From positions 1-26,943 of the IMG/VR virus record IMGVR_UViG_3300030116_005956: 26,943 nucleotides of DNA; one strand, 5' to 3'. The position numbers were made by a program, and so were the translations under genes. Below, one piece after another: positions 1 to 24,035 of the stretch (positions are counted from its first letter, which is position 1; each line of letters opens with the position of its first letter). The stretch comes from a virus. Below the pieces are notes generated by a model, which worked only from the letters and a program-made list of their open reading frames with translations, did no database searches and had not been told where the DNA came from.

Positions 1-1275
1 GCCTCACCTGAACCAACTAATGAATCTGTAAAGTTGGATAATATTTCTTCTGTAAATGTAGCACCTAAAGATGCAGAAGATAATTCTATTATGCAATCAT
101 TTACTAATCTATTTAAATATTATTCTCCAGAAAAAGTAACACAATTATTTGCTAAGAAAATGAATTTACCTGTTGAACGAGTTAATAATATTCTTGCAGG
201 CTCATTTAATTTACCAGAATTACAAGTTAAAAGAATAGCTACGCCTGAAGCTATACAAAGAGGATTAACTACTCCTGAAAAGGCAGGTGCAGATGCAAAT
301 AAACTGGCGTTCTTTGTGGATTTTTATAAAAGAAGAGATTACGATGATGAGGAAGCATTAAGAGCAGCACAAACACACGTAAGAGGCAATATACCTTTAG
401 TCTCTCCAAATCTTCAAGGAGAATCTATTCAAACTATAATTGGTAAAGATGGCAGCATTAATCAAACTCTAATGGATAGATATGGTGCGGACAACCAGTT
501 AATAAATCCAAATAAAAAAGATAGAGATGCCAATGAAAAATACATGAGTAGTGGTACTAGAACATTAGCTACTATTTATAAAGTAAAAACACTGCTAGAT
601 AAAAATAGTCAAGTGTATACAGTTTTAGGTAGACTTCAAAAAACAGGTAGTAATATTGCTAGTATATTAGGACAAGATGCATTAGCAGAGGCTATGGGAG
701 GTCCTGATGTAACTAAGGCAATTCAAGCTGCTAGAGAATTTATTAAAACTACTAAAGAAGCTATCTTTGATGACCCTCGTATTTCTGATAGAGATTTAGC
801 CATTATTAATCAATATATTGGTATTATCGCAGATGAAGAATTTCTTGGTGTGGGTAAAGCCAATGCATTAGCTGCTATTATAGCGTTGGAAAGAGCTGCA
901 GTAACTCAAATAGCAACTGCGTTAGCTGGAAATATGCCGGGGTTAGTTAGGGACAACAAGATAATATCTTATAGAGCTAATGGTACATTTAATGCAAATG
1001 ATGTTAATACAATAGCAGGAAAAATGTATGGTAGGATTATGAAAACTTACAAGTTAAATCAGGCTATGGTTAAAAATGCACAAAGAAATGTTGAGCAGAA
1101 TAAAACAACGCAAAGAGATATAGATATTCTTACACTACATGAAAATATAATGGGATTAGCTGAAAACTCTGTTAACGATATAATAGCTAGACAAACAATG
1201 GATGCAAAAGACTTTAAAGATAACTATAGAAATGTGTATTTACCAGAAATCAAAGCACCACAAACAGGAGTATAA
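1..1275 (+). CDS. Large virion-associated protein, 5'-truncated by window edge
   Basis: The reading frame is open from base 1 (A-S-P-E-P-T-N-E...), so the gene starts outside the window and the TTG at base 34 is not its start; 424 residues are visible. The sequence is largely helical and rich in Ala, Asn, Lys and Ile, with no recognisable enzymatic motif and no signal peptide. A more hydrophobic helical stretch (ANALAAIIALERAA and after) lies about 130 residues before the end. The stop codon is directly followed by the ATG of the next gene, which has the ribosome site AGGAG, so the two are translationally coupled. Position next to two giant genes on the strand opposite the replication genes suggests a virion structural or internal protein; this is inferred from context only. 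Confidence 0.75.
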   Translation, partial: ASPEPTNESVKLDNISSVNVAPKDAEDNSIMQSFTNLFKYYSPEKVTQLFAKKMNLPVERVNNILAGSFNLPELQVKRIATPEAIQRGLTTPEKAGADANKLAFFVDFYKRRDYDDEEALRAAQTHVRGNIPLVSPNLQGESIQTIIGKDGSINQTLMDRYGADNQLINPNKKDRDANEKYMSSGTRTLATIYKVKTLLDKNSQVYTVLGRLQKTGSNIASILGQDALAEAMGGPDVTKAIQAAREFIKTTKEAIFDDPRISDRDLAIINQYIGIIADEEFLGVGKANALAAIIALERAAVTQIATALAGNMPGLVRDNKIISYRANGTFNANDVNTIAGKMYGRIMKTYKLNQAMVKNAQRNVEQNKTTQRDIDILTLHENIMGLAENSVNDIIARQTMDAKDFKDNYRNVYLPEIKAPQTGV

Positions 1276-4200
1276 ATGTCAGAAGATTTTGCTACAAGAT
1301 TCCCATCAACTTTCGGACTCTTCCAAGATGACAAAAAAGAAACCAAGTCTAGTGATGATGATACTTATGTACCTACTCGTGAAGATATAGAAAAAACACG
1401 CACTGCCGATTTTACAGCAGGTTCTGAACTTATAGAAAAACCCATTGAAATGGGTGGACAAGTCCCAAAAGAAGATTTACTTGCAATGAGGTATGCACCT
1501 CCTTTTGCAGGATTAAGTGCGTTTCCTTTTTTATCAGCTGTTCCTAGACTTGCTAAAGACGAAGATGACCCTTTTAGAAAAGCTAGATTAGATAAAATAA
1601 CTTCAGAAATTGGAGGAGAATATAGCTACGACAGCAAAGAAGTATCTGATAAATTGAATGTGTCTACTATAGCAAAGTTAGGTTTTGCTGACAATAAATT
1701 ACATGTAGAAAATGCTCTTGAACAACAATTTGGTGCTGGTAATTTTAAAGTTGTTGAAGATACAGGCGCAGGATTTTTAGATAATAGATTTTTTGTCTCT
1801 GTTAAAAGAGAAGATGGCACTTTTACTCCTTTTACTAATCCCACACAAGATTTGCTCACCAGAGCACTGAAATATGTACCTATGGGAACTTATGAGGTTA
1901 CTTCTGATATTGCGGCTGTAACCGCCTCCTTTTTAACTTCGGCTGTAGTTACTACTACAACATCAGCAATTCCGGGGGTTGGTCCGGGGCTTGCCGTTGT
2001 AACAGGTCCTTTATCATTAGGGTATAGTTTGTATGTGTATAATAAGGGAGCAGAAAGAGGAAGACAATATATACAAAAAGCACTAGGACTCACAAAAGGT
2101 GAGGCTGATGATTTTGGAACATTTATAGAAGAAATTCACAAGTTAGCTTTAGACCCTAAAATAGGACAAGCACTTAAAAAATTATTTAATGACCCAACTG
2201 CTGATATAACAAGTAATGAGTTTAAGCAAGAATTAAGAGGTATAATTGGTTTTGCATTTCCATTTTTTCCAGCACTATTTGATAAAGTATCTATTGGTTT
2301 ATCTAGAGTTAGAGAAAAATTAGAGTTAAAAGGACCTGTTCAAGAACAGGACATATACAAATCTGCCATAGACGCAGAAAAATTTGCTGATTTAACTGGC
2401 TTACGAAATACAATGTTACCTCAAAGAACTATGAATAAAAAGATAAGCAGACTTGCAGGTATTATTGACCAAGTATCTGGTAAATTATCTCAAGGTCTAC
2501 GTCTTCAAATGCAAAGTGCTTATAATTATCTTAAGAACTTTTCAAAGAATATTGGAGAAGGAAATTTTGCAGAATTTAGAAATGCAATGTCTTCTTTTAA
2601 TAAAACTTTAACTGGTATTAGAGAAGGCAGAATACCTAAACCAGACCCAGAAAGACTTGGTGTTAAATTAAGTGAACTTGAAAATATGTTTTACGAATTG
2701 AGGTTAACTGAGTCAAGAGGAATGTATAATAATATATTTACTAAATTAAAAGACAGCACATTTGATTTAGAAAAAATACGTGCCTTTATAGTAGGTAGAG
2801 AGACCAGAAATGTAGAACCTATATCAGGTCAAAAACCTAATCAACCTTTTGAAGCAGCAACAAAACCTTTAGTACAAGGTGAACCTAAATTAGATTCTAT
2901 AGTAGAACATTTATTTGCTCTTGGTCGTGAATCTGGAGGAATAAGAAAATTAAGTAAAGAGTCTGTAAAAAAAGCAGTCGAAGTTTTGAGAAAAAATCAT
3001 CCAGAATATGCAAAATATATGGATGGTCATAATATACAAATAAAAACACCAGCTGAATTATTACATATGTATGCTACTATGTTAGGTAATATGTCTAAAG
3101 CTGTATTTGCAAAAGATACAGGAACTGCCGCTAACCCACAACTAGCCCAATTTGCTATGGGATTAAGAGAAACTATATTAGAAACTATAGCAAAGCCTTT
3201 AGGTGGTAAAGTAGATGTAACTAAAGACTTGGCTGCGGCTAATGCATTTTACAAAGAGACACTAGATAAAATAAGTAGTCTATCTCAAGAAGCTTCTAGG
3301 ATTCAAATAAAAACAGGTGGAGAAAAAACTATGTTACCAGAAGAATTTGGTATAGCTCCCGGTGCCTCTGGAATAAAGAGTAGAAGTCAAATTACTTTAC
3401 AAAATATTAGATTTCAAGAACAGTATGTTAAAAACGCGTTAACAGGAACAGGTAAAAAACCTCCTATAGGCGAATTACAACAAGCATTTAGTGATATTAT
3501 AGCATATAAATTAGGCGGGGCTGGAACTCCTGCGTTAACAAAATCAGAAACTGCACAAAGTGTGAAAAGTTTTCTAGAGTCATATTCTACTAGGGAATTA
3601 GAATTATTAGGACTTAGCCAAAAAAATGTGAAGCAATTGTATAAAGATTTAGATATAATTACAAAGTTAGAAGAGACACAACTAGCACAAACTTATATGT
3701 TAGGCAGCAGAATGAAAAACATTGAAATGAAATCTATATTTGAAAATGCAATAGGTAAGAAAAATGCAGCAGAATTTACTCAAGATGTAGATGCGATGTT
3801 GGCTGTAATAGCTAAATTGCCTAAAAAAGAAGCTGCGGCAGCTACAGATAACTTAAGAAAAAGTCTTTTTGATTTTATAATATCTAAAGAAAGTGGTGTG
3901 CTTTTTGAAATAACAAATAAAAATGCTGCATTTGCTCAAGTCGGGGATATAACAATTAATCCAACTAAATTAAATGAAGTCATAGAAAAGTTTAATTCTG
4001 CAGGAGTATTTGACAAAATATTAAATAAAAAAGTTAAAGTGGCAGAGGGTAAAGAAATATCAGAAAAGGAGATGCTGCTTGGAATACAAAATTATGTAGG
4101 CGTAATAAGTCAAGCAGGTGCAGATGCAGGTTCTGCATTATCTGGTGCTCAATTAATTAGTAATTTGTTTACTCTTGACCCAAGAAAGTTTATTGATGCT

Positions 4201-4512
4201 GTAGCTAGAATAAGTGCACAAGGAAGATTAGCTGTGTTGTTTTCAAATAAAAAGTTTGCTGACGTTGTATCTGGGATAGGAAAACCAACAGCTACAACTA
4301 GAGCAGGACGAATAAAAAGAAATTTAAAAACATTTATGTTTGGTAAAGGTTCTGTAGCTAACGTGGTAGCACAGGTTGCTCTTCAAGGTGGCATGGAGTA
4401 CAGACGTGCACAAGATGCAGCAAGTAATCAAACTATGGAAATGCTAAATATGGATATGTTTCCGGGCACTAGGGGACTATTTGACCAAACTAATGAGGCA
4501 CTAGGACAGTAA
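1276..4512 (+). CDS. Giant virion protein with hydrophobic segment, putative internal/ejection protein
   Basis: A 1078-residue protein with no recognised catalytic motif. It starts with ATG directly after the preceding stop, with AGGAG upstream. Residues about 211-255 form a long uncharged stretch rich in Ala, Thr, Val and Gly (SAVVTTTTSAIPGVGPG within it), flanked by soluble helical sequence; a shorter hydrophobic patch (FAGLSAFPFLSAVP) lies at 77-90 and another (GFAFPFFPALF) in the 320s-330s. The remainder is predicted by eye to be mostly helical with many Lys, Glu and Gln. Podovirus internal core proteins that are ejected and cross the envelope have this general look: very long, helical, with an embedded hydrophobic part. 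The assignment rests on size, composition and operon position, not on homology I can verify. Confidence 0.7.
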   Translation: MSEDFATRFPSTFGLFQDDKKETKSSDDDTYVPTREDIEKTRTADFTAGSELIEKPIEMGGQVPKEDLLAMRYAPPFAGLSAFPFLSAVPRLAKDEDDPFRKARLDKITSEIGGEYSYDSKEVSDKLNVSTIAKLGFADNKLHVENALEQQFGAGNFKVVEDTGAGFLDNRFFVSVKREDGTFTPFTNPTQDLLTRALKYVPMGTYEVTSDIAAVTASFLTSAVVTTTTSAIPGVGPGLAVVTGPLSLGYSLYVYNKGAERGRQYIQKALGLTKGEADDFGTFIEEIHKLALDPKIGQALKKLFNDPTADITSNEFKQELRGIIGFAFPFFPALFDKVSIGLSRVREKLELKGPVQEQDIYKSAIDAEKFADLTGLRNTMLPQRTMNKKISRLAGIIDQVSGKLSQGLRLQMQSAYNYLKNFSKNIGEGNFAEFRNAMSSFNKTLTGIREGRIPKPDPERLGVKLSELENMFYELRLTESRGMYNNIFTKLKDSTFDLEKIRAFIVGRETRNVEPISGQKPNQPFEAATKPLVQGEPKLDSIVEHLFALGRESGGIRKLSKESVKKAVEVLRKNHPEYAKYMDGHNIQIKTPAELLHMYATMLGNMSKAVFAKDTGTAANPQLAQFAMGLRETILETIAKPLGGKVDVTKDLAAANAFYKETLDKISSLSQEASRIQIKTGGEKTMLPEEFGIAPGASGIKSRSQITLQNIRFQEQYVKNALTGTGKKPPIGELQQAFSDIIAYKLGGAGTPALTKSETAQSVKSFLESYSTRELELLGLSQKNVKQLYKDLDIITKLEETQLAQTYMLGSRMKNIEMKSIFENAIGKKNAAEFTQDVDAMLAVIAKLPKKEAAAATDNLRKSLFDFIISKESGVLFEITNKNAAFAQVGDITINPTKLNEVIEKFNSAGVFDKILNKKVKVAEGKEISEKEMLLGIQNYVGVISQAGADAGSALSGAQLISNLFTLDPRKFIDAVARISAQGRLAVLFSNKKFADVVSGIGKPTATTRAGRIKRNLKTFMFGKGSVANVVAQVALQGGMEYRRAQDAASNQTMEMLNMDMFPGTRGLFDQTNEALGQ

Positions 4513-7500
4513 TGCAAGAAACAGTTAGAAATATATTTGGTTATGATGAGGAATTTGTAAACCCTACTACAGGTCCTTTTACAGAAGATGATTTAAAAAT
4601 ATCAGAAGATGATGTAAAAGGTTTTATCAAACGAAATAAAAATGCTCCTAAAGGACTTGTTAATCAAATGTTATTTGATATGGCAAATCCTCAATATACA
4701 AGGTATGGAGAAAGTAAAACTCTAACAGGACTTGGAACAAAATCTAGTTTAGAAGCTATAAAAGACCAACTTATAGCAGAAGCATTATATATTGATGCAC
4801 AAAAGAAAGCTAGTAAAAAAGCTGCTACAGTGCCTGCAGAGTATGGATTAATGAGTCCTAAGAATGTTATGGCGAGTGTTAATAATAATTTAAATCGCTC
4901 TGGTATTCTTATGCCGTTAGGAATGGATGCAGAAAAAGCTCCTGCAATAGGAGCAGCAGATAAGCCAACAGACCCTAGAACTTTAACAGGACCTATAACC
5001 GGAACAGACGTACTTAAATCTTTAAGTCCTTTTGACTCTTCCGTAGGTAAACTTAGATATGAAACAGGACAGATATTATCCCGATTACCCGGATTGGAAA
5101 TAGTTACAGGAGGACCCGGAGGTGCTACTTTTACTTCAGGAATTAATTTAAGAGGTTTGGCTAGTTTAGGTGATGAATTTTTAACGCAAAGCACTGTAGC
5201 AAAAGCTAAAAAAATGGGGACAAAGCTAGGTGCAGATTTTTTAGATGAATTTTTAAAATTAAAACAAATAAATGTAAATAAATTACCACAAAAACAACAA
5301 GATGTAGCCAAGTTATTAGAAAATAATCCAAAAAATGTTCCTTTAATTAAAGTGAATGACTTAGGTATAAAAGAAGAGTTAGCTAAATTAGATGTAGTGC
5401 CGACACCAGCAAAAACTATAGATGATACTTCTTTAGTTAAGGCATATACGGGTGAATACAGAGAAGGCTATGGGCATGGTGAAAAAAAAGCAGTAGATTC
5501 TTTTATAATTTCTGACAGTGCAACAAGTGTAGGACTAAAAGCAAAGGATGTAAAAACTCCTTATACAGGATTTAAAAGATATGAACATCCACAAGTAGTA
5601 GGGGAAAAGTATGAAAAAGAACCTTTGTATGGACATGTACGCACTATAGATTTAAAAAGATTGGCTGGAGGAGATATACATCCAAATATAGATGTAGAAG
5701 CAAAAGTATTAGGACAAAAAAATGAATTTTTAAGTCCGGAATATGGTCTTAAAGATTTTGACTTTCTTGAATCAAAAGGCTTTTGGAATCCGGAAGCTCA
5801 AATGGTTACTACATTTAAAACCCCGTCTGGAGAAATAAAAGAAGTTCCTATAACTAAAGATGTAAATAAAGAATTAAATAATTTTGGAATAGACGAAAAA
5901 AATATGCTTACTGAAATAGAACCAGAAGCTGTAGTAAAAAGTGATTTCAGTGCAGTAGATATGAACAAGTTAGATATACTTAAAGAGTTGTTAAATATGA
6001 GAATACGTATGCAGAGACTGCATGCACTTGTAAGATTTATTGATATTCCTAAATTAGAGGTTCTACAAAAAACTGTTCCTTTAGGTGCATATAAGGAAGT
6101 TCCTATTAAGGATAGGGAATTTTTTGGTGAAAAAATAAGTGCACTTCCTAAAACTGCTTTTTACAATTTTGATGATATTTTGAATAAAATAAAAAGTGCT
6201 AAAAATTTAGATACGCTTAGAGAACTTGAAAATTATATAGTAGGCTATACAAAGGCTAGCATAAAAAATAGTTTAACTACAGATGCAGTTAAAGGGTCTC
6301 CTAATGTATTGTCGGACATATGGTTAAATTCAATTCCTACAAATACAGGCACTAAACCCGGAGATTATTTTTATACTAAAAGAAATGATGTTAGCCAAGG
6401 AATGATTCAAAATAAATTTAATGGTCCTTTATTAATGGACCATCCTCATTTTCGCAATCCTTTAAGTCATAAGGTAATTTATGGTACAATGGGACAATTA
6501 TCTCAAATATACGCACAAAAGAATGTTCTTAATTTTGACCTTAGAAAGCCTATCGGCACACCTATAAATTTACGGGATACACAAGCAAATTTGTTAAATG
6601 CAGTGCCTAGAGGAGGAGATATACCATATAGTACTGCATTGAAAAATTTAATTAAACATGAAGAATTAGAAGGAGAAAAGTTATATAACTTGTATAAAAA
6701 AGCAACTTTATCCGATAAAAACATAGAAACTTTGTCTTCTTCTGGAGAGGCAATCACCACCAGAGAGGCAGAAGGTTTTGTTCCTACAGCAGGTAAACTA
6801 AGAAATGATATTCAAACAGCAGAAAAAAACTGGGGAAGTGGAGAAAACATATTACGTTTTTCAGAAGAACAATATGATACTTTCTCTTCTAAGAATTTTA
6901 AAACAGCGGATGATATGTTATCGGCTATGCGCAGCAAAAAAGTAAAGTTGTATGACCTACCAGTCAAAACAGACCCGGAATTTGATTTGAGTGTTTCTGA
7001 TATCGCTTTTGCTAACTTCAGAAATAAACCAGAACATTTAGTTGAGTTAACTACTCTGCATAACATAAAAAAAGCTATTGAAAATAATTATGATGTAGTG
7101 CAATTCAACACTTTTAATACACAAGCAAAATTATCTGGATGGTCACAGAGTTTATTTGAAGGAAGACGAGATGCGATGAGAGACTATTTTTTATCTGGTT
7201 TTACTGGAGATAAAGCATTAAATGCAAATGATAAAGCATTATTAACAATAATTAATAATTCTATTGATGAAAAAGTATTCCAAAGACTTAAATCAAAAAA
7301 AGGTATTGACTACGACAATGAAATATTAACAGGAGATGCAAACTTATTTAGACACTCAGAGACAAATTATGATACGTTAAGAAAACTTCCTAAAAAAAGT
7401 CAAAATGAATACTTAAAAGCAGTTAAAAAAGCTATGGATGAAAAAGATATAGATGGGAAAGTAATAAATGCTTTAAAGGGTGTTTCTGATGACATTATTG

Positions 7501-8267
7501 TTGATGTATTTGACGCAACATCCTATCTTATTAGAATGTTACATACTGTTCCACTACAACCTAAATATAAAGATTTACCATTAATAAAACGGTTAAACAA
7601 GGCAAAACAAACTGAATTTGTCAGTGGTAAAGTAAATGCCAATGGAGTAAATCTTGTTGATTTTAAAAAAGAGGTACTTAATGAACTTTTTTCTCCAGAA
7701 ACGGCTAAAGCAGTAACTCCAACAGAGTTTAAATATGCAGGAGTGTTAGGTGGGTTTTCAGGTAAATTAGACGAGTTTGGAATTTTATTATATCAAACAA
7801 AACAAAAAATATTAAAAAATAGCTTTGAAATTGAAATGGGAAATACTCCTACTAATGAAAATATTGCAAAGAGAAATATGAATAAGGTCTTTCATAAAAA
7901 ATATAAAGATTCCTTTCCTACTGAAGAAGCTTTAACAAAAGCAATTGTAAGTAAAACAAATGATAAGGGCAACTCTATATATGCAGAACTAAATCATCAA
8001 TATGGTAAAAACAAAATGAAAGCATTAGAAAAATTTGGACTACAACCAAAAATAATTACAGATACTAAAAATAATGTTACTAGAAGTTTTATAGAAATAA
8101 ATTTAGGCAAGACTAAAAAAGAAAAACTAGATTTACTAGAGAGATTAAATAACTATGAAGTTAAATTATACTCTAGAGTAAACCCAGTTCCTACTTTTAA
8201 CGAAGTGGCAGAAGAAGAGTTAACTACAGAAGCAGAAAACAAAACGGCTGTTCCTGCTTTTATGTAA
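4512..8267 (+). CDS. Giant virion protein, possibly polyvalent-protein related
   Basis: A 1251-residue protein whose ATG overlaps the previous stop (TAATG), so translation is coupled. Ribosome-site-like AGGACAG lies just upstream. Between residues about 310 and 410 the order Y-R-E, then G-H-V-R-T-I-D (about 374-380), then D-V-E-A-K-V-L-G-Q recalls a domain that recurs in very large phage virion proteins, whose consensus is roughly YRE...HxR..D...EEIQSD; the acidic last motif is degraded here. The rest is unrecognised. The C-terminus ends in an acidic stretch (EVAEEELTTEAENK). The gene is last on the plus strand and its stop overlaps the stop of the convergent minus-strand gene by 8 bp. Probably a virion protein; the domain resemblance is tentative. 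Confidence 0.7.
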   Translation: MQETVRNIFGYDEEFVNPTTGPFTEDDLKISEDDVKGFIKRNKNAPKGLVNQMLFDMANPQYTRYGESKTLTGLGTKSSLEAIKDQLIAEALYIDAQKKASKKAATVPAEYGLMSPKNVMASVNNNLNRSGILMPLGMDAEKAPAIGAADKPTDPRTLTGPITGTDVLKSLSPFDSSVGKLRYETGQILSRLPGLEIVTGGPGGATFTSGINLRGLASLGDEFLTQSTVAKAKKMGTKLGADFLDEFLKLKQINVNKLPQKQQDVAKLLENNPKNVPLIKVNDLGIKEELAKLDVVPTPAKTIDDTSLVKAYTGEYREGYGHGEKKAVDSFIISDSATSVGLKAKDVKTPYTGFKRYEHPQVVGEKYEKEPLYGHVRTIDLKRLAGGDIHPNIDVEAKVLGQKNEFLSPEYGLKDFDFLESKGFWNPEAQMVTTFKTPSGEIKEVPITKDVNKELNNFGIDEKNMLTEIEPEAVVKSDFSAVDMNKLDILKELLNMRIRMQRLHALVRFIDIPKLEVLQKTVPLGAYKEVPIKDREFFGEKISALPKTAFYNFDDILNKIKSAKNLDTLRELENYIVGYTKASIKNSLTTDAVKGSPNVLSDIWLNSIPTNTGTKPGDYFYTKRNDVSQGMIQNKFNGPLLMDHPHFRNPLSHKVIYGTMGQLSQIYAQKNVLNFDLRKPIGTPINLRDTQANLLNAVPRGGDIPYSTALKNLIKHEELEGEKLYNLYKKATLSDKNIETLSSSGEAITTREAEGFVPTAGKLRNDIQTAEKNWGSGENILRFSEEQYDTFSSKNFKTADDMLSAMRSKKVKLYDLPVKTDPEFDLSVSDIAFANFRNKPEHLVELTTLHNIKKAIENNYDVVQFNTFNTQAKLSGWSQSLFEGRRDAMRDYFLSGFTGDKALNANDKALLTIINNSIDEKVFQRLKSKKGIDYDNEILTGDANLFRHSETNYDTLRKLPKKSQNEYLKAVKKAMDEKDIDGKVINALKGVSDDIIVDVFDATSYLIRMLHTVPLQPKYKDLPLIKRLNKAKQTEFVSGKVNANGVNLVDFKKEVLNELFSPETAKAVTPTEFKYAGVLGGFSGKLDEFGILLYQTKQKILKNSFEIEMGNTPTNENIAKRNMNKVFHKKYKDSFPTEEALTKAIVSKTNDKGNSIYAELNHQYGKNKMKALEKFGLQPKIITDTKNNVTRSFIEINLGKTKKEKLDLLERLNNYEVKLYSRVNPVPTFNEVAEEELTTEAENKTAVPAFM

Positions 8268-12999: not shown

Positions 13000-13864
13000 G
13001 CCACTTTTTTGTGATATGGGTATACCAGACCCACTTCGGGTTTTTACCTTTGCTAGGGAGCTGTTTTTTAAACTCGACTTTTTTCCAACATTCCAATTTA
13101 AAGGGGCAGTAGCTACACTCCAATCCCAAGGTTCTATTCCCAGTTTCTTTTTTGTAAAAGACTTCTTTGACATCGGAGAAACACCGTTTAAAAGGTCTTT
13201 TAGCATGTAATGATTTAAAAGCATTGCGTAATTTATCACGTATATCCTCTCTTTCTTGTTTATTATTTTTTGCTTCTGCTATGGTTATTTCTCCAGTAGA
13301 TTTATTTAAAGCAATCCAGCCTTTAAAAGGCTTCTTTGCTGCCATAGCGTATCCATGTCCTTGAGCAACATATCCAAATGCATCAGATGCTTTTATTCTT
13401 TCATAAGCATCGTCTGGTTTAAATTTATGCTCAAATGCAAATGGGGATACAGTTTTTATATCATATATCCCATCATCTAATTCAATATCATATTCACCAG
13501 ATATCGAGTTATTTTTATCAATTTTGTATTCCACTTTCTTATGTTTATTTTTTACCTTAATTCCTGAAGCTTTAATAATAGAAATTAATAGAGCTTCAAG
13601 AACATCTCCCATAATCATACGCATTTTAAAATCATAGGAGGGAGCTTCAGCTTTAGCATTTTTAGATTGCATTTGTAATTGGCAAAGCGGTTTGCCTGCA
13701 TTACTCATACGTAATCTGAAATCGTTATCTTGTGCATTAAACTGTTTATTAAGTGCTTCTGCACAAGCTTCACTAAACTCCTTGATAAGGCGAGAGGGCA
13801 TTGAAGCCCTCCCTTGAGCTGCCTTTGAAAGGAAAGAAAGTATAGCAGCTTCTTTTTTATTCAT
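12977..13864 (-). CDS. RecB/Cas4-like PD-(D/E)XK exonuclease
   Basis: A 295-residue nuclease. Core motifs in order: GDVLEALL helix with E90, GEYDIEL with D126, the catalytic strand IYDIKTVS with D135 and K137, and a helix with YVAQGHGYAMA (Q169, Y172), the usual QxxxY motif of RecB-type nucleases. A lone Cys near the N-terminus (C61, PLCQLQMQ) and a C-terminal CxxCx5C cluster (C250, C253, C259) reproduce the four-cysteine arrangement that holds a 4Fe-4S cluster in Cas4 and AddB. A 5'-3' or end-processing exonuclease for phage recombination or host DNA degradation is likely. It overlaps the ssDNA-binding gene by ATGA, supporting a joint role in strand processing. The iron-sulphur cluster is inferred. 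Confidence 0.82.
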   Translation of the reverse strand: MNKKEAAILSFLSKAAQGRASMPSRLIKEFSEACAEALNKQFNAQDNDFRLRMSNAGKPLCQLQMQSKNAKAEAPSYDFKMRMIMGDVLEALLISIIKASGIKVKNKHKKVEYKIDKNNSISGEYDIELDDGIYDIKTVSPFAFEHKFKPDDAYERIKASDAFGYVAQGHGYAMAAKKPFKGWIALNKSTGEITIAEAKNNKQEREDIRDKLRNAFKSLHAKRPFKRCFSDVKEVFYKKETGNRTLGLECSYCPFKLECWKKVEFKKQLPSKGKNPKWVWYTHITKKWRASEHSV

Positions 13865-14721
13865 GACCCTAACGCAGCATCTACATCGTCATTAAGGGCA
13901 TCATCAACGTCAACATTAGCAGGAGCTTGGTCAATAACTTTGCCCTGCTTTCGCAAAACTTCGTCATACAAAGCCATAACTTTTTTGTTTTCGCTGTTAA
14001 TATAGTCCATGAAAAAAGATAAAGTAGATTGGTCTCCATCTGTGAAGTCTATAGGTCCGTCATTGACCTTAAAACCTCCAACGTAGTAGACTAGCCCACC
14101 ATTCTTTTTCTTTTCTAATGAACCTCGCAATTTGTAAAAAATAAATGGTTTCTTCTGTGCAGAGAGTGAGTCTATAGGCACAGAGATAGGCATAAAGTTA
14201 CTACCTCTGGCTCTCCACAACACAGGCAAATCATTCGCTTCTACAGAATTGCCATCTGCATCCACAGCATCTATAAAAGATGCTTTGCCAAACAACATAC
14301 GAAAACACTTTATATTTTTCTGTTGCAAGGCTTTGTCTGCAGATAAACCTTCACGTTGGCTAGCAGGAACAGAGCCACATCTAAAAGTTCCAACTGTATC
14401 TGGAATCTCCGTCTGTGGATAAAGATTATTAGCCATTACTGACCTGCTGACCATCTCATTTACCTCGGCATCATAATGTAAGTATTGATACCTTTGGGCA
14501 AACACTTGAAGGTCTATTTCTTTAGAGTATACGGTTTTACCCCCTATATCTAAAGATGTAGTCCACGAACCTGCAGGGATTGACCTGCCGGAATCGTCTT
14601 CGTGGTCTCTATTTATTTTTAGATAAAACATAGAGGGAGTTGCGTTAGACGGCTCATCCTGCCCTATTATTTTAGCTATGTCCTCAAAACTAGAGGACGA
14701 TGTTAAAGTTAAATCATTCAT
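13861..14721 (-). CDS. Putative single-stranded DNA-binding protein
   Basis: A 286-residue soluble protein whose middle (about 30-225) is beta-rich with many aromatic and basic residues (FYLKINR, LPVLWRARGSNFMPI, FIFYKLRGSLEKKKNGG, YYVGGFKV), and whose C-terminus is a disordered acidic tail (DVDDALNDDVDAALGS, 271-286). An OB-like body with an acidic tail is typical of single-stranded DNA-binding proteins, where the tail recruits polymerase, primase or nucleases. Position directly after DNA polymerase and before the exonuclease fits. ATG has AAGGAG nine bases upstream, and a strong sigma-70-type promoter lies just before it. No homology is verified, so the role is inferred from composition and context. 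Confidence 0.62.
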   Translation of the reverse strand: MNDLTLTSSSSFEDIAKIIGQDEPSNATPSMFYLKINRDHEDDSGRSIPAGSWTTSLDIGGKTVYSKEIDLQVFAQRYQYLHYDAEVNEMVSRSVMANNLYPQTEIPDTVGTFRCGSVPASQREGLSADKALQQKNIKCFRMLFGKASFIDAVDADGNSVEANDLPVLWRARGSNFMPISVPIDSLSAQKKPFIFYKLRGSLEKKKNGGLVYYVGGFKVNDGPIDFTDGDQSTLSFFMDYINSENKKVMALYDEVLRKQGKVIDQAPANVDVDDALNDDVDAALGS

Positions 14722-14749: not shown

Positions 14750-14778
14750 TTTATACTAGATTATTAGTCATTAGTCAA
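14750..14778 (-). promoter_or_regulatory. Sigma-70-type promoter before the ssDNA-binding gene
   Basis: TTGACT (14773-14778), exactly 17 bases, TATAAA (14750-14755). The -35 lies inside the last codons of the polymerase gene and the -10 just after its stop; the ssDNA-binding gene starts about 30 bases downstream. The best promoter match in the window; it would let the second half of the replication block be expressed independently of the polymerase. Confidence 0.7.
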
Positions 14779-16878
14779 GTGAAATTCTTTCATATCTAAC
14801 CAATTTTTTCCTATTTCTAAATCAACGGCAAGAGGAACATTCCATTTAATGTTATAGAAGTCCTCAAACTGTTGATTTACCTTTGTCATAGCATTGTAAG
14901 TCATTCTAGCAACCTTCTGTTCTTCACCGGGGTATATATCTAAAACTATTGAGTCATGGACCGTATTAATAATTTTAGACGTAGCTCCACTATCCGTAAG
15001 TTCATTGTGTAGTTGAATAAGTGCCAACGGCACAACACAACCCCCTGCGATACCCTGCACGGGATAATTTTTAATAGAGGGTGCTCCAGATGCATTACCA
15101 CTCGCAAGCCGTTTAGTATCTGGAAAAGCAAATTGTTGACCAGTATCCATACTAACAATACTATGTGTAATAGCCTCAGTTTGAAGATTATCATGCCACT
15201 CTCCTAACTTAGGGTACTTTGCGACAAAAGCTTTATAGTATGACATCTCATTAGGTGTACCTGTAGTGCCGCCATAGAGAGGTTTAAAAGTATGCGCTTT
15301 TGCCGCAGTACGCTCTTCTTTAGTGATGTCCTTCTCATCTTTGTTAAAGATAATAGAAGCAGTATATCTGTGAACATCACTACCATTAATAATGTCTTTA
15401 TACATATTTTCATCGCCACATAATTGTGCCGCTACACGAAACTCTAACTGACTATAGTCAGCTTGAAGTATATTGCCATTACTAAACCTTGATACAACCA
15501 CTGCCCTAACTGGAAATGTAGAGGCTCTGGGTTGATTTTGAAAGTTTGGGTCTGAAGAAGATAATCTAGTAGTTCTAGTTATACATTGATTAAATTTAGG
15601 ATGTAATACTCCATCAGTTCTAGTATTACGAGAAATACCACCTACAAAACTAGATAAATATACATCAACTGCGTTTAATCTTATAGAAGACTTTAGAAAC
15701 TCTTCTGCTTTTTTATTCTGTTTATATTTAGCTGCAGACAATAATCTCACTAATGTGGATTTATCTGTTGCAAAACCATTAGCAGATACGTCATGAATAT
15801 CTCTAGGATTCATTGTGAGTCCTGCTATTTTAGGCATGGGAATATATACAAAACCTGCCCCACGACACGCAGGACATTTGGTTGATTTTTTCCATCTGGT
15901 GCCGTCCTTCTTAGTTTTATAATACTCTCCACGACCTTTACATGTATGACAATGATTAGCAGTCGTTTTGTGAACTCTAGAAGTCATTGACTTTACATGA
16001 TGAACAAATAAAGAATTACTCATCTTAGGACGATGAAAAGGTTTACCTTTCTCATTGAGACCTATATTAAATACTTCAGCCCATTTCTTTTTATCTAACA
16101 CTTTTCGTGAATAGATAAGCTGACTAACTTGTTCTGGAGAAGCAAAATTAATAGGAGTATCCCCCATAACATCATTACATATGTCTTCCATTTTAATTTT
16201 AAGTTGTGATTGCTCTCTTTGATAATCCGCTCTCACTTTGTGAAGTGTAGAAAAATCTATTTTTATGCCGTTGCGTTCTATAGTAGCAAGCACAGGTAAA
16301 AAATTATTCATTAATTTCAAATGCTTATACATCATAGAATTGTGTGATTTTTTATACAAATTACTTTGAGCAATATGTAATTGTCTAGTTGATTCTATAT
16401 CACCTATACCATATTCTTTAACAGTCTCCATAGGAATTTTATCAAATCCTATTCCTTGTTTAAGATAATCATCTATTAATTCAGACTTTTTCATGGCGAC
16501 ATTACGGCGCACACACGAATCAGACAAACTAATCCCTTGCTTTTGCTGTCTTAATAATAAATATTCTCCAATCATGGTGTCATATACTTTATTAGTATAT
16601 TTAAATCCACTTTCCCATAACCAAATTAAATCAAATTTAATATTATGCCCTACTAACAAAGTTGTATTATTAAGAACAATTTGTATTTGTGTGAATGCGT
16701 CTCTTGTATCAACACATCTCAAATCTTTGTGATGAAACCAATGAAAATGTATATCTTTATCATTGATTGCATATTGAATTGAAACAAGTCTGTTTTGTGA
16801 ATTAAACGGAGATGGGTCTGTCCGCTTGTTATCATCAATTACAAATGTTGTCTCAACATCTATATATGTTGTTGTCAT
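14764..16878 (-). CDS. polA: Family A DNA polymerase with exonuclease and DnaJ-type zinc insertion
   Basis: The replicative polymerase, 704 residues. 3'-5' exonuclease: Exo I YIDVET (D7, E9), Exo II VGHNIKFD (N79, D83), Exo III YGIGD (Y156, D160). Polymerase: motif A LQADYSQLEFR with D474, motif B R523-x3-K527-x3-F531-x3-Y535, motif C VHDS (H641, D642). The residue equivalent to E. coli F762 is Phe (F531), unlike Tyr in T7. Between the thumb helix NFASPEQVSQLIY (244-256) and GFATDKSTL (368-376) lies an insertion of about 100 residues with two CxxCxGxG motifs (C310, C313; C335, C338), half of a DnaJ zinc domain. This architecture is known from phage HMO-2011. It overlaps the helicase gene by ATGA. 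Confidence 0.96.
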   Translation of the reverse strand: MTTTYIDVETTFVIDDNKRTDPSPFNSQNRLVSIQYAINDKDIHFHWFHHKDLRCVDTRDAFTQIQIVLNNTTLLVGHNIKFDLIWLWESGFKYTNKVYDTMIGEYLLLRQQKQGISLSDSCVRRNVAMKKSELIDDYLKQGIGFDKIPMETVKEYGIGDIESTRQLHIAQSNLYKKSHNSMMYKHLKLMNNFLPVLATIERNGIKIDFSTLHKVRADYQREQSQLKIKMEDICNDVMGDTPINFASPEQVSQLIYSRKVLDKKKWAEVFNIGLNEKGKPFHRPKMSNSLFVHHVKSMTSRVHKTTANHCHTCKGRGEYYKTKKDGTRWKKSTKCPACRGAGFVYIPMPKIAGLTMNPRDIHDVSANGFATDKSTLVRLLSAAKYKQNKKAEEFLKSSIRLNAVDVYLSSFVGGISRNTRTDGVLHPKFNQCITRTTRLSSSDPNFQNQPRASTFPVRAVVVSRFSNGNILQADYSQLEFRVAAQLCGDENMYKDIINGSDVHRYTASIIFNKDEKDITKEERTAAKAHTFKPLYGGTTGTPNEMSYYKAFVAKYPKLGEWHDNLQTEAITHSIVSMDTGQQFAFPDTKRLASGNASGAPSIKNYPVQGIAGGCVVPLALIQLHNELTDSGATSKIINTVHDSIVLDIYPGEEQKVARMTYNAMTKVNQQFEDFYNIKWNVPLAVDLEIGKNWLDMKEFHLTND

Positions 16879-18086
16879 GCTGTGTACCTACTTAAATCTG
16901 TATCGAGATTACATACAATTTTACCATGAAATCCCGTTAGTTTATTTTTAGATATAGTTATATATCTTCTTTTATCTGCGTTATCAGTTATATCGGATTT
17001 GCCAATACCAATAATTAAATCAGCTTCTGCGGCTTTTCCGGTTTTACTATTCTCCATCATAGCATATGTTACATTAGTTTTGCCCTCTGCATCTGCAGAT
17101 GCTTGACTAATGCCTATACCAAATAAATTATGCCTCTTACATATTTCACGGTATTTAGTGTATATACTACGAAGCTTTTCATCTGTCCTTGCAAACGAAC
17201 CCATAACATTAAGTTTATCTAACTGGTCAACTATTAATATATCTGGTTTTTTATCACCACAATATTTGTCCAACCATTCTATAGAGGCATCCACATTATC
17301 TACCATTGTTATTTGTGAAGATATCTCTGTGAATTTATCTCTAGCTTGTGAACGATTAGCATATATTTGTTTGTCATTATATCCAGTATATGCAGACACT
17401 GCTCTTAACATTGTTCTTCGTGCAGGCTCTTCATTAGTTATTATGTGAACATCTGCACCTTGTGAACAGAAGCCATTTGGTGATGCCACTAAAGATACAT
17501 AAAATGCTGTTTTACCTATCTCTGGTCTTGCAAACGCAATCATAAATTCGCCTGCTTTACCACCTCTGACAGATTTTGCAAGACTAGGTATATTAAACTC
17601 CCAACAATCTTCGTTGTCTGCATACTCTAGTAATGTATCTACATCTGTAGTTACTGGTGTTACATCATCCTCTGGCACAAAACCATCTTGTGATTTTTCT
17701 ATTAATGCTTTTACATCTTGTATCTTTTCTGGCGAACCTTCCATTATAGCTAAACCCATATCAGCTATATTTCTACCTATCTCTTGCTGCCACATTTTCT
17801 TTAATACATCAGATGCTACATCTTTACCCATTTTAGGTAAATGTTCTATATCTACTAAAACTTCTGCTACTGCATCTCGTTTAGCACGAGTAGCTGTTGG
17901 ATTGCTTACACGATATATTTCCCTAACTTCTTGTGAAGATAAATCTCTTTCATAGCTTGAATGACCACTTATAATCGTATCATACAAATCTGCTAATTCG
18001 TTCGGAAACATTGAACGCATAACACGACTTTTATTTGCATCAAAGAACTCTTTATGCATTAAAAGTTTAATTAATTGCTGTTCCAT
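16875..18086 (-). CDS. Replicative DNA helicase, DnaB/T7 gp4-type RecA fold
   Basis: Hexameric 5'-3' helicase that would unwind the fork ahead of the phage polymerase. Residues 1-130 are a helical N-terminal region; the RecA-like core starts near 165. Walker A is ARPEIGKT (186-193), with Ala in place of the usual first Gly; a catalytic-type acidic pair follows in ITNEE (E219, E220); Walker B is ILIVDQLD with D287; sensor-type motif IGISQAS has Q328; SKTGKAAEADLIIGI (347-361) matches the arginine-finger/KxR region. Length 403 fits a helicase lacking the primase part of T7 gp4. The start overlaps the primase gene by 16 bases, so the two are translated together as a split primase-helicase. Confidence 0.88.
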   Translation of the reverse strand: MEQQLIKLLMHKEFFDANKSRVMRSMFPNELADLYDTIISGHSSYERDLSSQEVREIYRVSNPTATRAKRDAVAEVLVDIEHLPKMGKDVASDVLKKMWQQEIGRNIADMGLAIMEGSPEKIQDVKALIEKSQDGFVPEDDVTPVTTDVDTLLEYADNEDCWEFNIPSLAKSVRGGKAGEFMIAFARPEIGKTAFYVSLVASPNGFCSQGADVHIITNEEPARRTMLRAVSAYTGYNDKQIYANRSQARDKFTEISSQITMVDNVDASIEWLDKYCGDKKPDILIVDQLDKLNVMGSFARTDEKLRSIYTKYREICKRHNLFGIGISQASADAEGKTNVTYAMMENSKTGKAAEADLIIGIGKSDITDNADKRRYITISKNKLTGFHGKIVCNLDTDLSRYTA

Positions 18087-18844
18087 ACTAATTTCTTAAT
18101 CTCCTCTTTACTAAAATATTTTAAATCATCAGTTAATCTAACGACACTACAAGATATAAAATACGATAAATACTTGTGAATGTCAAGTGATTTGCGAGTA
18201 GCATCAGCATCTAAACAAATATATATGTGAGTATACCCTTTTAGAGATGCTAAATCTGCATCTTTCATATTTGTGCCTAGTAAGGCTATTCCGGTTGCAA
18301 CTTGTGAAACAGCACATGCACTGGCGGCATCTTCTACAAGAATTGCTTTTGAATGTTCACCACAAGTGAATAGTTTAGAGGATTTACCATATCTATACCA
18401 TTTAGGCACAGCTCCTCTAGTCATACTTCTGCCTATGGCATCACAAACTTGTGAATCATGCTCGACTAAAAATACAACTCGGTTTTGTTTTGGGTCATAC
18501 ATAATTTTAGCAAGTTTATCATCTAAAGCATTGATACAATTATTTCTTTTTAAATATGCCATTGCTTGTGAATTATTGTGAACTTGAACAAAATGTTCGG
18601 GATGATAGAACTGAACAGAGTGATAGTTGCTAGAAGCAACAATATTTTTAATATCTGTTTTTGTTCTAGTAATATTTTTACCTCCTTTTGTTTTACAAGA
18701 TGCCTTGTAACAATTCCATAAAAGTTTGCCATGTTGTTTCGTTAAAGTAAAAGTATTTCTTCCGGCACACAATGGACAATTTAGTCTGACAGAGGTGTTA
18801 TCTGTTGGTTCATGTTGTTGTATAAATGTTTGTAAATTCTGCAT
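18071..18844 (-). CDS. DNA primase (zinc-binding and TOPRIM domains)
   Basis: Synthesises RNA primers for the lagging strand. 257 residues: N-terminal zinc-binding domain with CPLC (C23, C26) and CYKASC (C45, C50), then the RNA polymerase basic region, then TOPRIM with the conserved Glu in LVEDAAS (E171) and the metal-binding DxD in CLDADAT (D212, D214). This corresponds to the N-terminal half of T7 gp4, encoded here as its own protein. The start ATG has AGGAT five bases upstream. It is the first gene after a terminator and a candidate promoter, so it opens the primase-helicase-polymerase operon. Confidence 0.88.
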   Translation of the reverse strand: MQNLQTFIQQHEPTDNTSVRLNCPLCAGRNTFTLTKQHGKLLWNCYKASCKTKGGKNITRTKTDIKNIVASSNYHSVQFYHPEHFVQVHNNSQAMAYLKRNNCINALDDKLAKIMYDPKQNRVVFLVEHDSQVCDAIGRSMTRGAVPKWYRYGKSSKLFTCGEHSKAILVEDAASACAVSQVATGIALLGTNMKDADLASLKGYTHIYICLDADATRKSLDIHKYLSYFISCSVVRLTDDLKYFSKEEIKKLVWNSN

Positions 18845-18968: not shown

Positions 18969-20438
18969 TTATAAATCAAATCCATATTGGCTTCTGTTAT
19001 ACCAATAGTCATCATCTTCCTCTGAAGCTGTGGTTTGTTTGCCTTTCTTTATGCCTTCGTCATAAGCATCGACAACTTGTTCTGCCATCTGTTCAAGTGT
19101 TGCAGTATCTTTAATCCAAGAATACAATACTCTTTGCACTTTCTGTTTATGTGTTTCAGATTCTGCAAAGCCGTCCTCTTGGTCAAAAGATTCTAGTTTA
19201 TTTAGAGAATCCTTAATTTTGTCCAGACAAGATTGATTTTGTCTTTCTTGGTTAGTTACAATTTTAGACTCCCTAGCACCACTAAAGTCATAATCATTGT
19301 AGTCATACAATGCTCTAGTGTTACGTCTATTGTAGTTATTGTATCTTCCATAACCTCTTCCGTAGTAAGAGTTTGAAGAAACATCCTTCGGGTCTCTTTT
19401 GACTGGTAGTTCATGCCACTTTACTTTTAATAAAGCAGGAAGTAACATAGATTGCAACCACTCTAAATCAAACTTCTCTCGAGAACTGTGTTGATGTTTG
19501 TAACCAACAGACACATTAGTGCACTCGGGGATAATTTCAGTGTAGTTTGCACTATCTGTAAACACACCACTAGCTGAAGGACTCATCTGTTGTTTAGGTG
19601 GTAAGTATATGTTTAATTCATCTGCTAATGCTTGAGCAAATTCATTTGAACAACACCTGCCTCCACTTTGATTAGTTATAATATCTCCGTAATCCATTCT
19701 GTCGAATGCTATACAATACTTGTATCCTTCAACTATTTCTGGAGTTGTTTCAGATATATATTTAGAACCAATGCCCCCACATTCTTCGCCAACATGGAAT
19801 ACATATAGTCCTTTAACTCCTGCTTGTATTAGTTTACACATAATGTAACAACCGAGTTTGTCGTCAGCACCAAGCACGGCAGCAGTAGGTTCTACTTTAG
19901 TATCTACTTTGAATTTAATTTTGGTATCTTGCCAATTATCAAAATCATCATCAGATGCAAATAGAACTTTATGTTTGCCTTGCCAAAACATAGTATAGTT
20001 ATCAAAATCAAAACCTTTCTTCTTGGCATATCTTTTGATATCAAATTCGTCCATTTCAGTTTTGGCATCTCCTACTCGTTTGTATTTATACACTTCTTTA
20101 TCTTTAGAAGCATACACAAAGTTATCATCAGTTAGACGCAAATCAGTAGTAGCACCAAGTGATGCCGATTGCACCGTATCCATATGACAACTAAACATAA
20201 CTTTAGAGTCTCCCACACTTGCTATTAGATTACCTTTATCATCTACATGACATTTGGCATATTTACTAATAGCCTTGATAATTATATCTGCCACAGGTTT
20301 TTCTTTACCATGTGGAGATACAGTTGTTAATAGGTCATACAACAATGAGTCCATGTCTTTACCTCTAACTACTTTTTTTAGTTTAGATATATCCACAGAT
20401 TCTCTGGTATAACCAGAATAATAATTAGTTAAACTCAT
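18969..20438 (-). CDS. M20/M42-type zinc aminopeptidase, PepT-like, with long C-terminal extension
   Basis: A 489-residue dinuclear zinc exopeptidase. Metal and catalytic residues in family order: H85 and D87 in CHMDTV, bridging D192 in LGADDKLGC, catalytic E218/E219 in HVGEECGG, D246 in AFDRMD, and a final His in GYKHQHSS (H315 or H317). The LGADDK motif is closest to tripeptidase PepT (M20B). About 85 residues are inserted between the first two motifs. After residue 345 there is an extra tail with a Tyr/Arg/Asn/Gly-rich part (YYGRGYGRYNNYNRR, 358-372) and a helical acidic end. No signal peptide, so cytoplasmic. ATG has AGAAAGGA upstream. In a phage this would be an auxiliary gene, perhaps for peptide turnover; substrate unknown. 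Confidence 0.85.
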   Translation of the reverse strand: MSLTNYYSGYTRESVDISKLKKVVRGKDMDSLLYDLLTTVSPHGKEKPVADIIIKAISKYAKCHVDDKGNLIASVGDSKVMFSCHMDTVQSASLGATTDLRLTDDNFVYASKDKEVYKYKRVGDAKTEMDEFDIKRYAKKKGFDFDNYTMFWQGKHKVLFASDDDFDNWQDTKIKFKVDTKVEPTAAVLGADDKLGCYIMCKLIQAGVKGLYVFHVGEECGGIGSKYISETTPEIVEGYKYCIAFDRMDYGDIITNQSGGRCCSNEFAQALADELNIYLPPKQQMSPSASGVFTDSANYTEIIPECTNVSVGYKHQHSSREKFDLEWLQSMLLPALLKVKWHELPVKRDPKDVSSNSYYGRGYGRYNNYNRRNTRALYDYNDYDFSGARESKIVTNQERQNQSCLDKIKDSLNKLESFDQEDGFAESETHKQKVQRVLYSWIKDTATLEQMAEQVVDAYDEGIKKGKQTTASEEDDDYWYNRSQYGFDL

Positions 20439-23959: not shown

Positions 23960-24035
23960 TGGTGATGCCTGCAGGATTCGAACCTACGTTGCCGCTGTGA
24001 AAGAGCGATGTCCTAGACCACTAGACGAAGGCATC
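23960..24035 (-). tRNA. tRNA-Glu (anticodon TTC), CCA encoded
   Basis: A complete 76-base cloverleaf: acceptor GATGCCT pairs with AGGCATC, discriminator A, then encoded CCA (ending at 23960); the D-arm region TCGTCTAGTGG...AGGAC is that of bacterial tRNA-Glu; anticodon stem TCGCT/AGCGG encloses loop CTTTCAC with anticodon TTC (23999-24001); T-arm GTAGG-TTCGAAT-CCTGC. It reads GAA, a very frequent codon in these AT-rich genes. It is the first transcribed element after the promoter embedded in the upstream terminator. No integrase lies in the window, so an attachment-site role is only a possibility. Confidence 0.95.

Follow-up and report, generated by a model that had tools for sequence, protein, structure and literature searches.

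The combination of an exonuclease, half of a DnaJ central domain and a DNA polymerase in one protein has been published for phage HMO-2011, the CRP phages and 207 metagenomic genomes, and is used as the hallmark of the HMO-2011-type phages, an abundant group; HMO-2011, correctly named by the original prediction as a phage with this combination, bears a PF00684 note in its own record. Our search of the literature outside subscription journals found no functional work on the zinc insert. The T7 polymerase, also a phage family-A enzyme, likewise has a basic thumb insertion, its thioredoxin-binding domain, and in T7 acidic C-terminal tails bind basic patches of the polymerase, one of them at this domain (PMC12593628). 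In plant organellar PolI and in mitochondrial Pol gamma, insertions in the thumb have also been associated with processivity, with clamping of the primer-template or with the binding of accessory factors, and no zinc site is mentioned in the passages on them (PMC7699545).

Here, we analysed a stretch of viral DNA of 26,943 bases (an IMG/VR virus record; hereafter, the window), in which genes for a primase, a DnaB-like helicase, a polymerase and an uncharacterised 286-aa protein follow each other in this order on the minus strand:

18071-18844, minus strand: DNA primase with zinc ribbon and Toprim (phrog_47, E=5.2e-14)
16875-18086, minus strand: DnaB-like replicative helicase (PF03796, E=3.4e-10; phrog_19, E=2e-42)
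14764-16878, minus strand: family-A DNA polymerase with 3'-5' exonuclease, 704 aa (PF00476, E=2.9e-55; PF01612, E=1.2e-9)
13861-14721, minus strand: 286-aa protein, candidate single-strand binding protein (SSB) with a disordered acidic C-terminal tail (AlphaFold2 pLDDT 87, tail below 50)

The primase-helicase-polymerase order is common to HMO-2011 (gp10-12), HTVC033P (gp20-22), CRP-3 and CRP-212, and HMO-type phages conserve the gene for the 286-aa protein immediately behind that of the polymerase. Downstream of the latter gene, the window encodes a Cas4-type exonuclease, a RusA/PDDEXK-like nuclease, a DUF3310 protein and a B12-type ribonucleotide reductase. An M42-like peptidase gene (phrog_4191, E=4.4e-70; 18969-20438, minus strand) adjoins the replication genes, and a tRNA-Glu (TTC) gene lies at 23960-24035 (minus strand). 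Two very long ORFs on the plus strand (1276-4512, 1078 aa, and 4512-8267, 1251 aa) are probably structural genes; no PHROG match was found for the former and no Pfam match for the latter, and the large structural-type ORFs at 34-8267 of this 26.9-kb fragment gave no Pfam or PHROG matches where scanned.

The Pfam domain order within the window polymerase is 3'-5' exonuclease, half DnaJ central domain and family-A polymerase, with two strict CxxCxGxG motifs between the exonuclease and polymerase parts; that is, the protein belongs to the HMO-2011-type group. The polymerases of HMO-2011 (gp12), CRP-1, CRP-2, CRP-3 and HTVC033P show the same order, including the half-DnaJ zinc insert, and share 37-45.5% identity with that of the window over 98-99% of the protein. 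However, the window lineage is distinct from these isolates, the best of which (HTVC033P) shares 45.5% identity with it, whereas the nearest environmental relatives share 65-79%. When the insert was left out of the phylogeny, the polymerases of the window, HMO-2011, the CRP phages and HTVC033P formed one clade (support 94/94, present in 94% of the bootstrap trees; small tree with only eight outgroup rows). The HMO-type matches in our genome scan came mostly from marine metagenome-assembled genomes, plus one single-cell alphaproteobacterial assembly (L166, AG-899-M17), and the host assignment is therefore not firm; the HMO-type polymerase fragment in the single-cell assembly is a possible host link.

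The zinc module of the polymerase comprises two knuckles and the hairpin between them:

15853-15951, minus strand: zinc module, residues 310-342, CHTCKGRG - 17 aa - CPACRGAG, four Cys invariant in relatives
15928-15951, minus strand: zinc knuckle 1, residues 310-317 (CHTCKGRG)
15877-15927, minus strand: basic hairpin between the knuckles, residues 318-334, with conserved K321, K323, G326 and K330
15853-15876, minus strand: zinc knuckle 2, residues 335-342 (CPACRGAG)

In the translation of the polymerase, the C310 codon is at 15951-15949 and the G342 codon ends at 15853, so the two CxxCxGxG motifs with C310/C313 and C335/C338 had been placed exactly by the original prediction (codons 15951-15853). 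PF00684 (DnaJ_CXXCXGXG) matched residues 304-344 (E=2.4e-5, 24.9 bits, profile positions 12-53 of 65), which was the sole match to this family in the window, and the score is under the curated cut-off of 32.7 bits both for the whole protein (24.9) and for the insert alone (27.5). The inserts of relatives were also matched by PF00684, in 22 of 22 cases. Based on its sequence, we predict the tetra-Cys insert to be a zinc-binding module with the four invariant Cys as ligands.

An AlphaFold2 model built on an alignment of 75 relatives (mean pLDDT 93.1; about 85-96 for the 10-residue blocks of the insert), the best Foldseek match of which in the PDB was the Klenow fragment (1kfs, E=1.8e-29), provides the following landmarks of the thumb:

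16165-16254, minus strand: long thumb helix H, residues 209-238 (AlphaFold2 model)
16111-16137, minus strand: thumb helix H1, residues 248-256, aligned with Klenow SSTKQLQTIL (AlphaFold2 model and alignment)
15778-16104, minus strand: whole thumb-tip insertion, residues 259-367 (AlphaFold2 model)
15724-15762, minus strand: thumb helix H2, residues 373-385 (AlphaFold2 model)

The predicted elements of the insert are a strand (258-260), two helices (263-270 and 288-298), a second strand (303-309), the two knuckles and a third strand (343-351), and a long helix (389-418) follows H2. The Klenow sequence alignment ends after H1 (query SPEQVSQLIYSRK on SSTKQLQTILFEKQ), where the insert begins, and the Bst sequence alignment picks up again at H2; therefore, the insert is the H1-H2 loop, i.e., the tip of the thumb, as judged from the predicted helix order and sequence alignment. 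The claim of an insertion of about 100 residues inside the thumb hence fits the H1-H2 loop of 111 aa (99-112 aa in the HMO-type isolates measured), and it withstood the predicted structure, run as a check capable of refuting it, which puts the insertion between H1 and H2. The original prediction was also right that the insert is on the opposite side of H1 from that of T7. Specifically, the T7 insert precedes H1 (FNPSSRDHIQKKL) and the T7 H1-H2 loop is 14 aa long, whereas here the insert follows H1 and has a tetra-Cys site; it is not of the T7 type, which lies between helices H and H1, but sits between H1 and H2. The position of the T7 insert before H1 was read by hand from the T7 sequence; the MAFFT alignment misplaces it.

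The sister lineages of the HMO-type clade, VpV262 and StenR_269, have short H1-H2 loops (15 and 22 aa, respectively). In the Stenotrophomonas phage StenR_269, a thioredoxin-domain protein is encoded just upstream of the short-loop polymerase (1388-1654 of locus L029). The H1-H2 loop is also enlarged (52-136 aa) in MEP401, ICP2, Alcaligenes QDWS535, Lullwater and Vibrio K437b (Zobellviridae and related), but these polymerases have no tetra-Cys site (0-2 Cys) and a lower charge (0 to +6), and several are split in two ORFs. The split falls between thumb and palm in ICP2 (L026, 2944-5037), MEP401 (L027, 3001-5111) and QDWS535 (L158, 344-2259), and MEP401 has a 77-aa ORF between its two polymerase ORFs. 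A tblastn search with the zinc module over phage isolates returned 12 HMO-type records and four weak lambdoid matches (one annotated as late regulator Q, three without a name); that is, weak lambdoid matches aside, the module was found among isolates only in HMO-2011-type records. The simplest reading, against eight outgroup rows, is that the long zinc loop was gained once on the HMO stem; alternatively, a long loop might have been ancestral and lost in the sister lineage.

The four Cys, as well as G315, G326 and G342, were invariant in 75 of 75 non-redundant relatives (40-79% identity), while the other six Cys of the polymerase vary (each kept in 4-56 of the 75, one of them in 5/58), which argues against chance conservation of the zinc-module Cys. 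The HMO-type set of the literature is filtered on the CxxCxGxG motif itself. As an independent check on that set, we assembled, among the matches listed, 173 distinct full-length relatives from two palm-motif searches plus earlier loci; the zinc site is not in the palm-motif pattern and the search is therefore unbiased towards it. All four Cys were kept in every one of these 173 proteins, and no relative lacking the zinc site was found among them; thus, the conservation of the four Cys in HMO-2011-type polymerases, by which the original prediction could be judged, held in both sets (75/75, and 173/173 among the matches listed). Both strict CxxCxGxG motifs were present in 110 of the 173, whereas the remaining 63 keep the four Cys but not both full motifs, so the constraint falls on the metal ligands. 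That is, selection on these sequences holds the predicted metal ligands rather than the glycines, and the strict-motif filter of the literature is narrower than the feature actually conserved (63/173 among the matches listed fall outside it). The stretch between the knuckles has 17 residues in 169 and 29 residues in four of the 173 relatives among the matches listed; in the polymerases of loci L094, L108, L109 and L110, the hairpin is longer by exactly 12 residues and lysine-rich, with the knuckles unchanged.

DnaJ has two zinc centres, one of which is formed by motifs 2 and 3 as a pair. A profile built from 22 inserts matched E. coli DnaJ (1EXK) across these two motifs (E=3.7e-5) and also Ydj1, with weaker matches to antitermination Q, UvrA and anti-TRAP; "half of a DnaJ domain" was hence an apt description, with two of the four motifs present and aligned to motifs 2 and 3 of 1EXK. 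A full DnaJ central domain has four CxxCxGxG motifs and two zinc centres, whereas the insert has two motifs only. No J domain (PF00226) was found in six HMO-type phage records by a search that was positive in 12 of 14 control genomes, or in Pfam scans of the main ORFs of the window. The match to motifs 2 and 3, together with the lack of a J domain, therefore indicates a DnaJ-type zinc knuckle and not a DnaJ, and a DnaJ/chaperone identity was rejected on the two of four motifs, the sub-cut-off PF00684 score and the six records free of a J domain. The DnaJ/Ydj1 zinc domain, Q and anti-TRAP are alike in their CxxCxGxG knuckles, with DnaJ motifs 2 and 3 being the best match, but the polymerase insert has one zinc centre only, is set in a thumb and has a longer, lysine-rich hairpin. 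It is extremely improbable, in our view, that the insert recruits the DnaK/DnaJ chaperones of the host, a role hinted at by the DnaJ label in the literature; the similarity to PF00684 and the requirement of lambda replication for DnaJ (PMC9038755) speak for such a role, but the likeness is confined to motifs 2 and 3 and under the Pfam cut-off, the J-domain search was negative, and two proteins that are no chaperones, antitermination Q and anti-TRAP, have the same knuckles.

The net charge of the insert averages +13.3 (range +6 to +21) vs. +8.1 for the whole polymerase; therefore, the rest of the polymerase is net negative. Six columns of the insert are at least 90% basic (K263, K279, K304, K321, K323 and K330), and no column of the insert is at least 90% acidic, vs. 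20 such columns elsewhere in the polymerase. What the model and the alignments display is thus a basic, tetra-Cys-invariant element at the predicted thumb tip that is conserved across the clade. We favor the hypothesis that the H1-H2 loop has been expanded to a basic subdomain of ~110 residues, at whose outer end a single tetra-cysteine zinc site of the DnaJ motif-2/3 type would hold together a two-stranded hairpin. Kept rigid by the zinc, this hairpin would clasp the backbone of the nascent primer-template duplex with its conserved lysines and thereby give the polymerase a grip of its own (for processivity and strand displacement) that needs no thioredoxin; possibly, the same tip also docks a partner. 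We favor this grip because a Klenow enzyme with a truncated thumb is still active but has lower processivity and fidelity (Minnick 1996, cited by PMC10061031) and because the lysine-rich thumb insertions of plant organellar PolI have been proposed to clamp the primer-template (PMC7699545). On the other hand, the enrichment of conserved basic columns in the insert is weak (Fisher p=0.04 at 80% and 0.12 at 90%), the sister polymerases of VpV262 and StenR_269 function with a loop of 15-22 residues, and a basic surface would suit partner docking equally well. With zinc binding, DNA contact and the gain in processivity deduced from position, charge and analogy, we regard the chances of the grip being real as about evenly balanced. 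It is quite unlikely, by comparison, that the zinc site is structural only, stabilising a loop that drift has enlarged and contributing nothing particular to processivity or docking. The H1-H2 loop of phage PolA ranges from 14 to 136 aa, mostly without a tetra-Cys site, and a large loop would therefore be tolerated here, but the invariance of the site (173/173 among the matches listed) and the conserved lysines and glycine of the hairpin exceed the needs of a passive loop. DnaJ-type zinc centres can also be oxidoreductases (DnaJ on DksA; PMC8262869), and Cys oxidation might thus free the zinc and tune polymerase activity as a redox sensor or switch; we consider this very unlikely, given that the surroundings of the polymerase in the window revealed no redox partner and that Cys invariance suits a structural role as well.

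The main alternative to the grip is that the insert is a partner-docking platform, like the T7 thioredoxin-binding domain, with the basic zinc hairpin binding the acidic tail of the SSB candidate or a host factor. In T7, basic patches of the thumb insert bind the acidic C-terminal tails of gp4 and gp2.5 (PMC12593628; PMC7699545), and a PolA and an SSB with a predicted contact at the thumb tip are known from earlier work (PMC10061031). Orthologs of the 286-aa protein end in an acidic tail, disordered in the model: the charge of the last 20 residues averages -4.9 over 61 orthologs, and is -4 or lower in 77% of them vs. 7% of internal 20-mers. The neighbouring helicase is free of such a tail, and was rejected as the acidic-tail partner (helicase tails are neutral, mean -0.07). 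The acidic-tailed 286-aa protein is hence a possible polymerase partner. However, tails are near-neutral in some orthologs, the charges of insert and tail are uncorrelated over 58 loci (rho 0.13, p=0.34), and the protein has no Pfam match, no PHROG match at E<=0.01 and no significant fold match, its best Foldseek matches being non-significant and including several RPA OB-fold subunits (E 0.05-0.4). From its confidently modelled fold, we propose it as a candidate for a new phage SSB family; for lack of a significant SSB fold match and of a charge correlation, the docking partner stays a lead, and we rate docking as the role of the insert as unlikely, albeit less so than a purely structural one.

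In conclusion, while the combination of zinc insert and polymerase was already known as the HMO-2011-type hallmark, our analysis adds its exact position at the thumb tip, on the H1-H2 side, and the half of DnaJ that it resembles (motifs 2 and 3), as well as the unbiased ligand invariance, the basic hairpin, the loop-length comparison and a testable candidate partner. What had been a "partial DnaJ" curiosity thereby becomes a precise hypothesis, open to inexpensive tests, on how a phage replicase may achieve processivity without a borrowed host factor. In its widest form, which we put forward tentatively and consider somewhat doubtful, HMO-2011-type phages would have made a metal-stabilised, thioredoxin-independent processivity and docking domain from the H1-H2 tip, with a lysine hairpin on the duplex and a link to the phage's own SSB through the acidic tail of the latter. 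If true, the problem for which T7 borrowed host thioredoxin would have been solved a second time, from the opposite side of H1.
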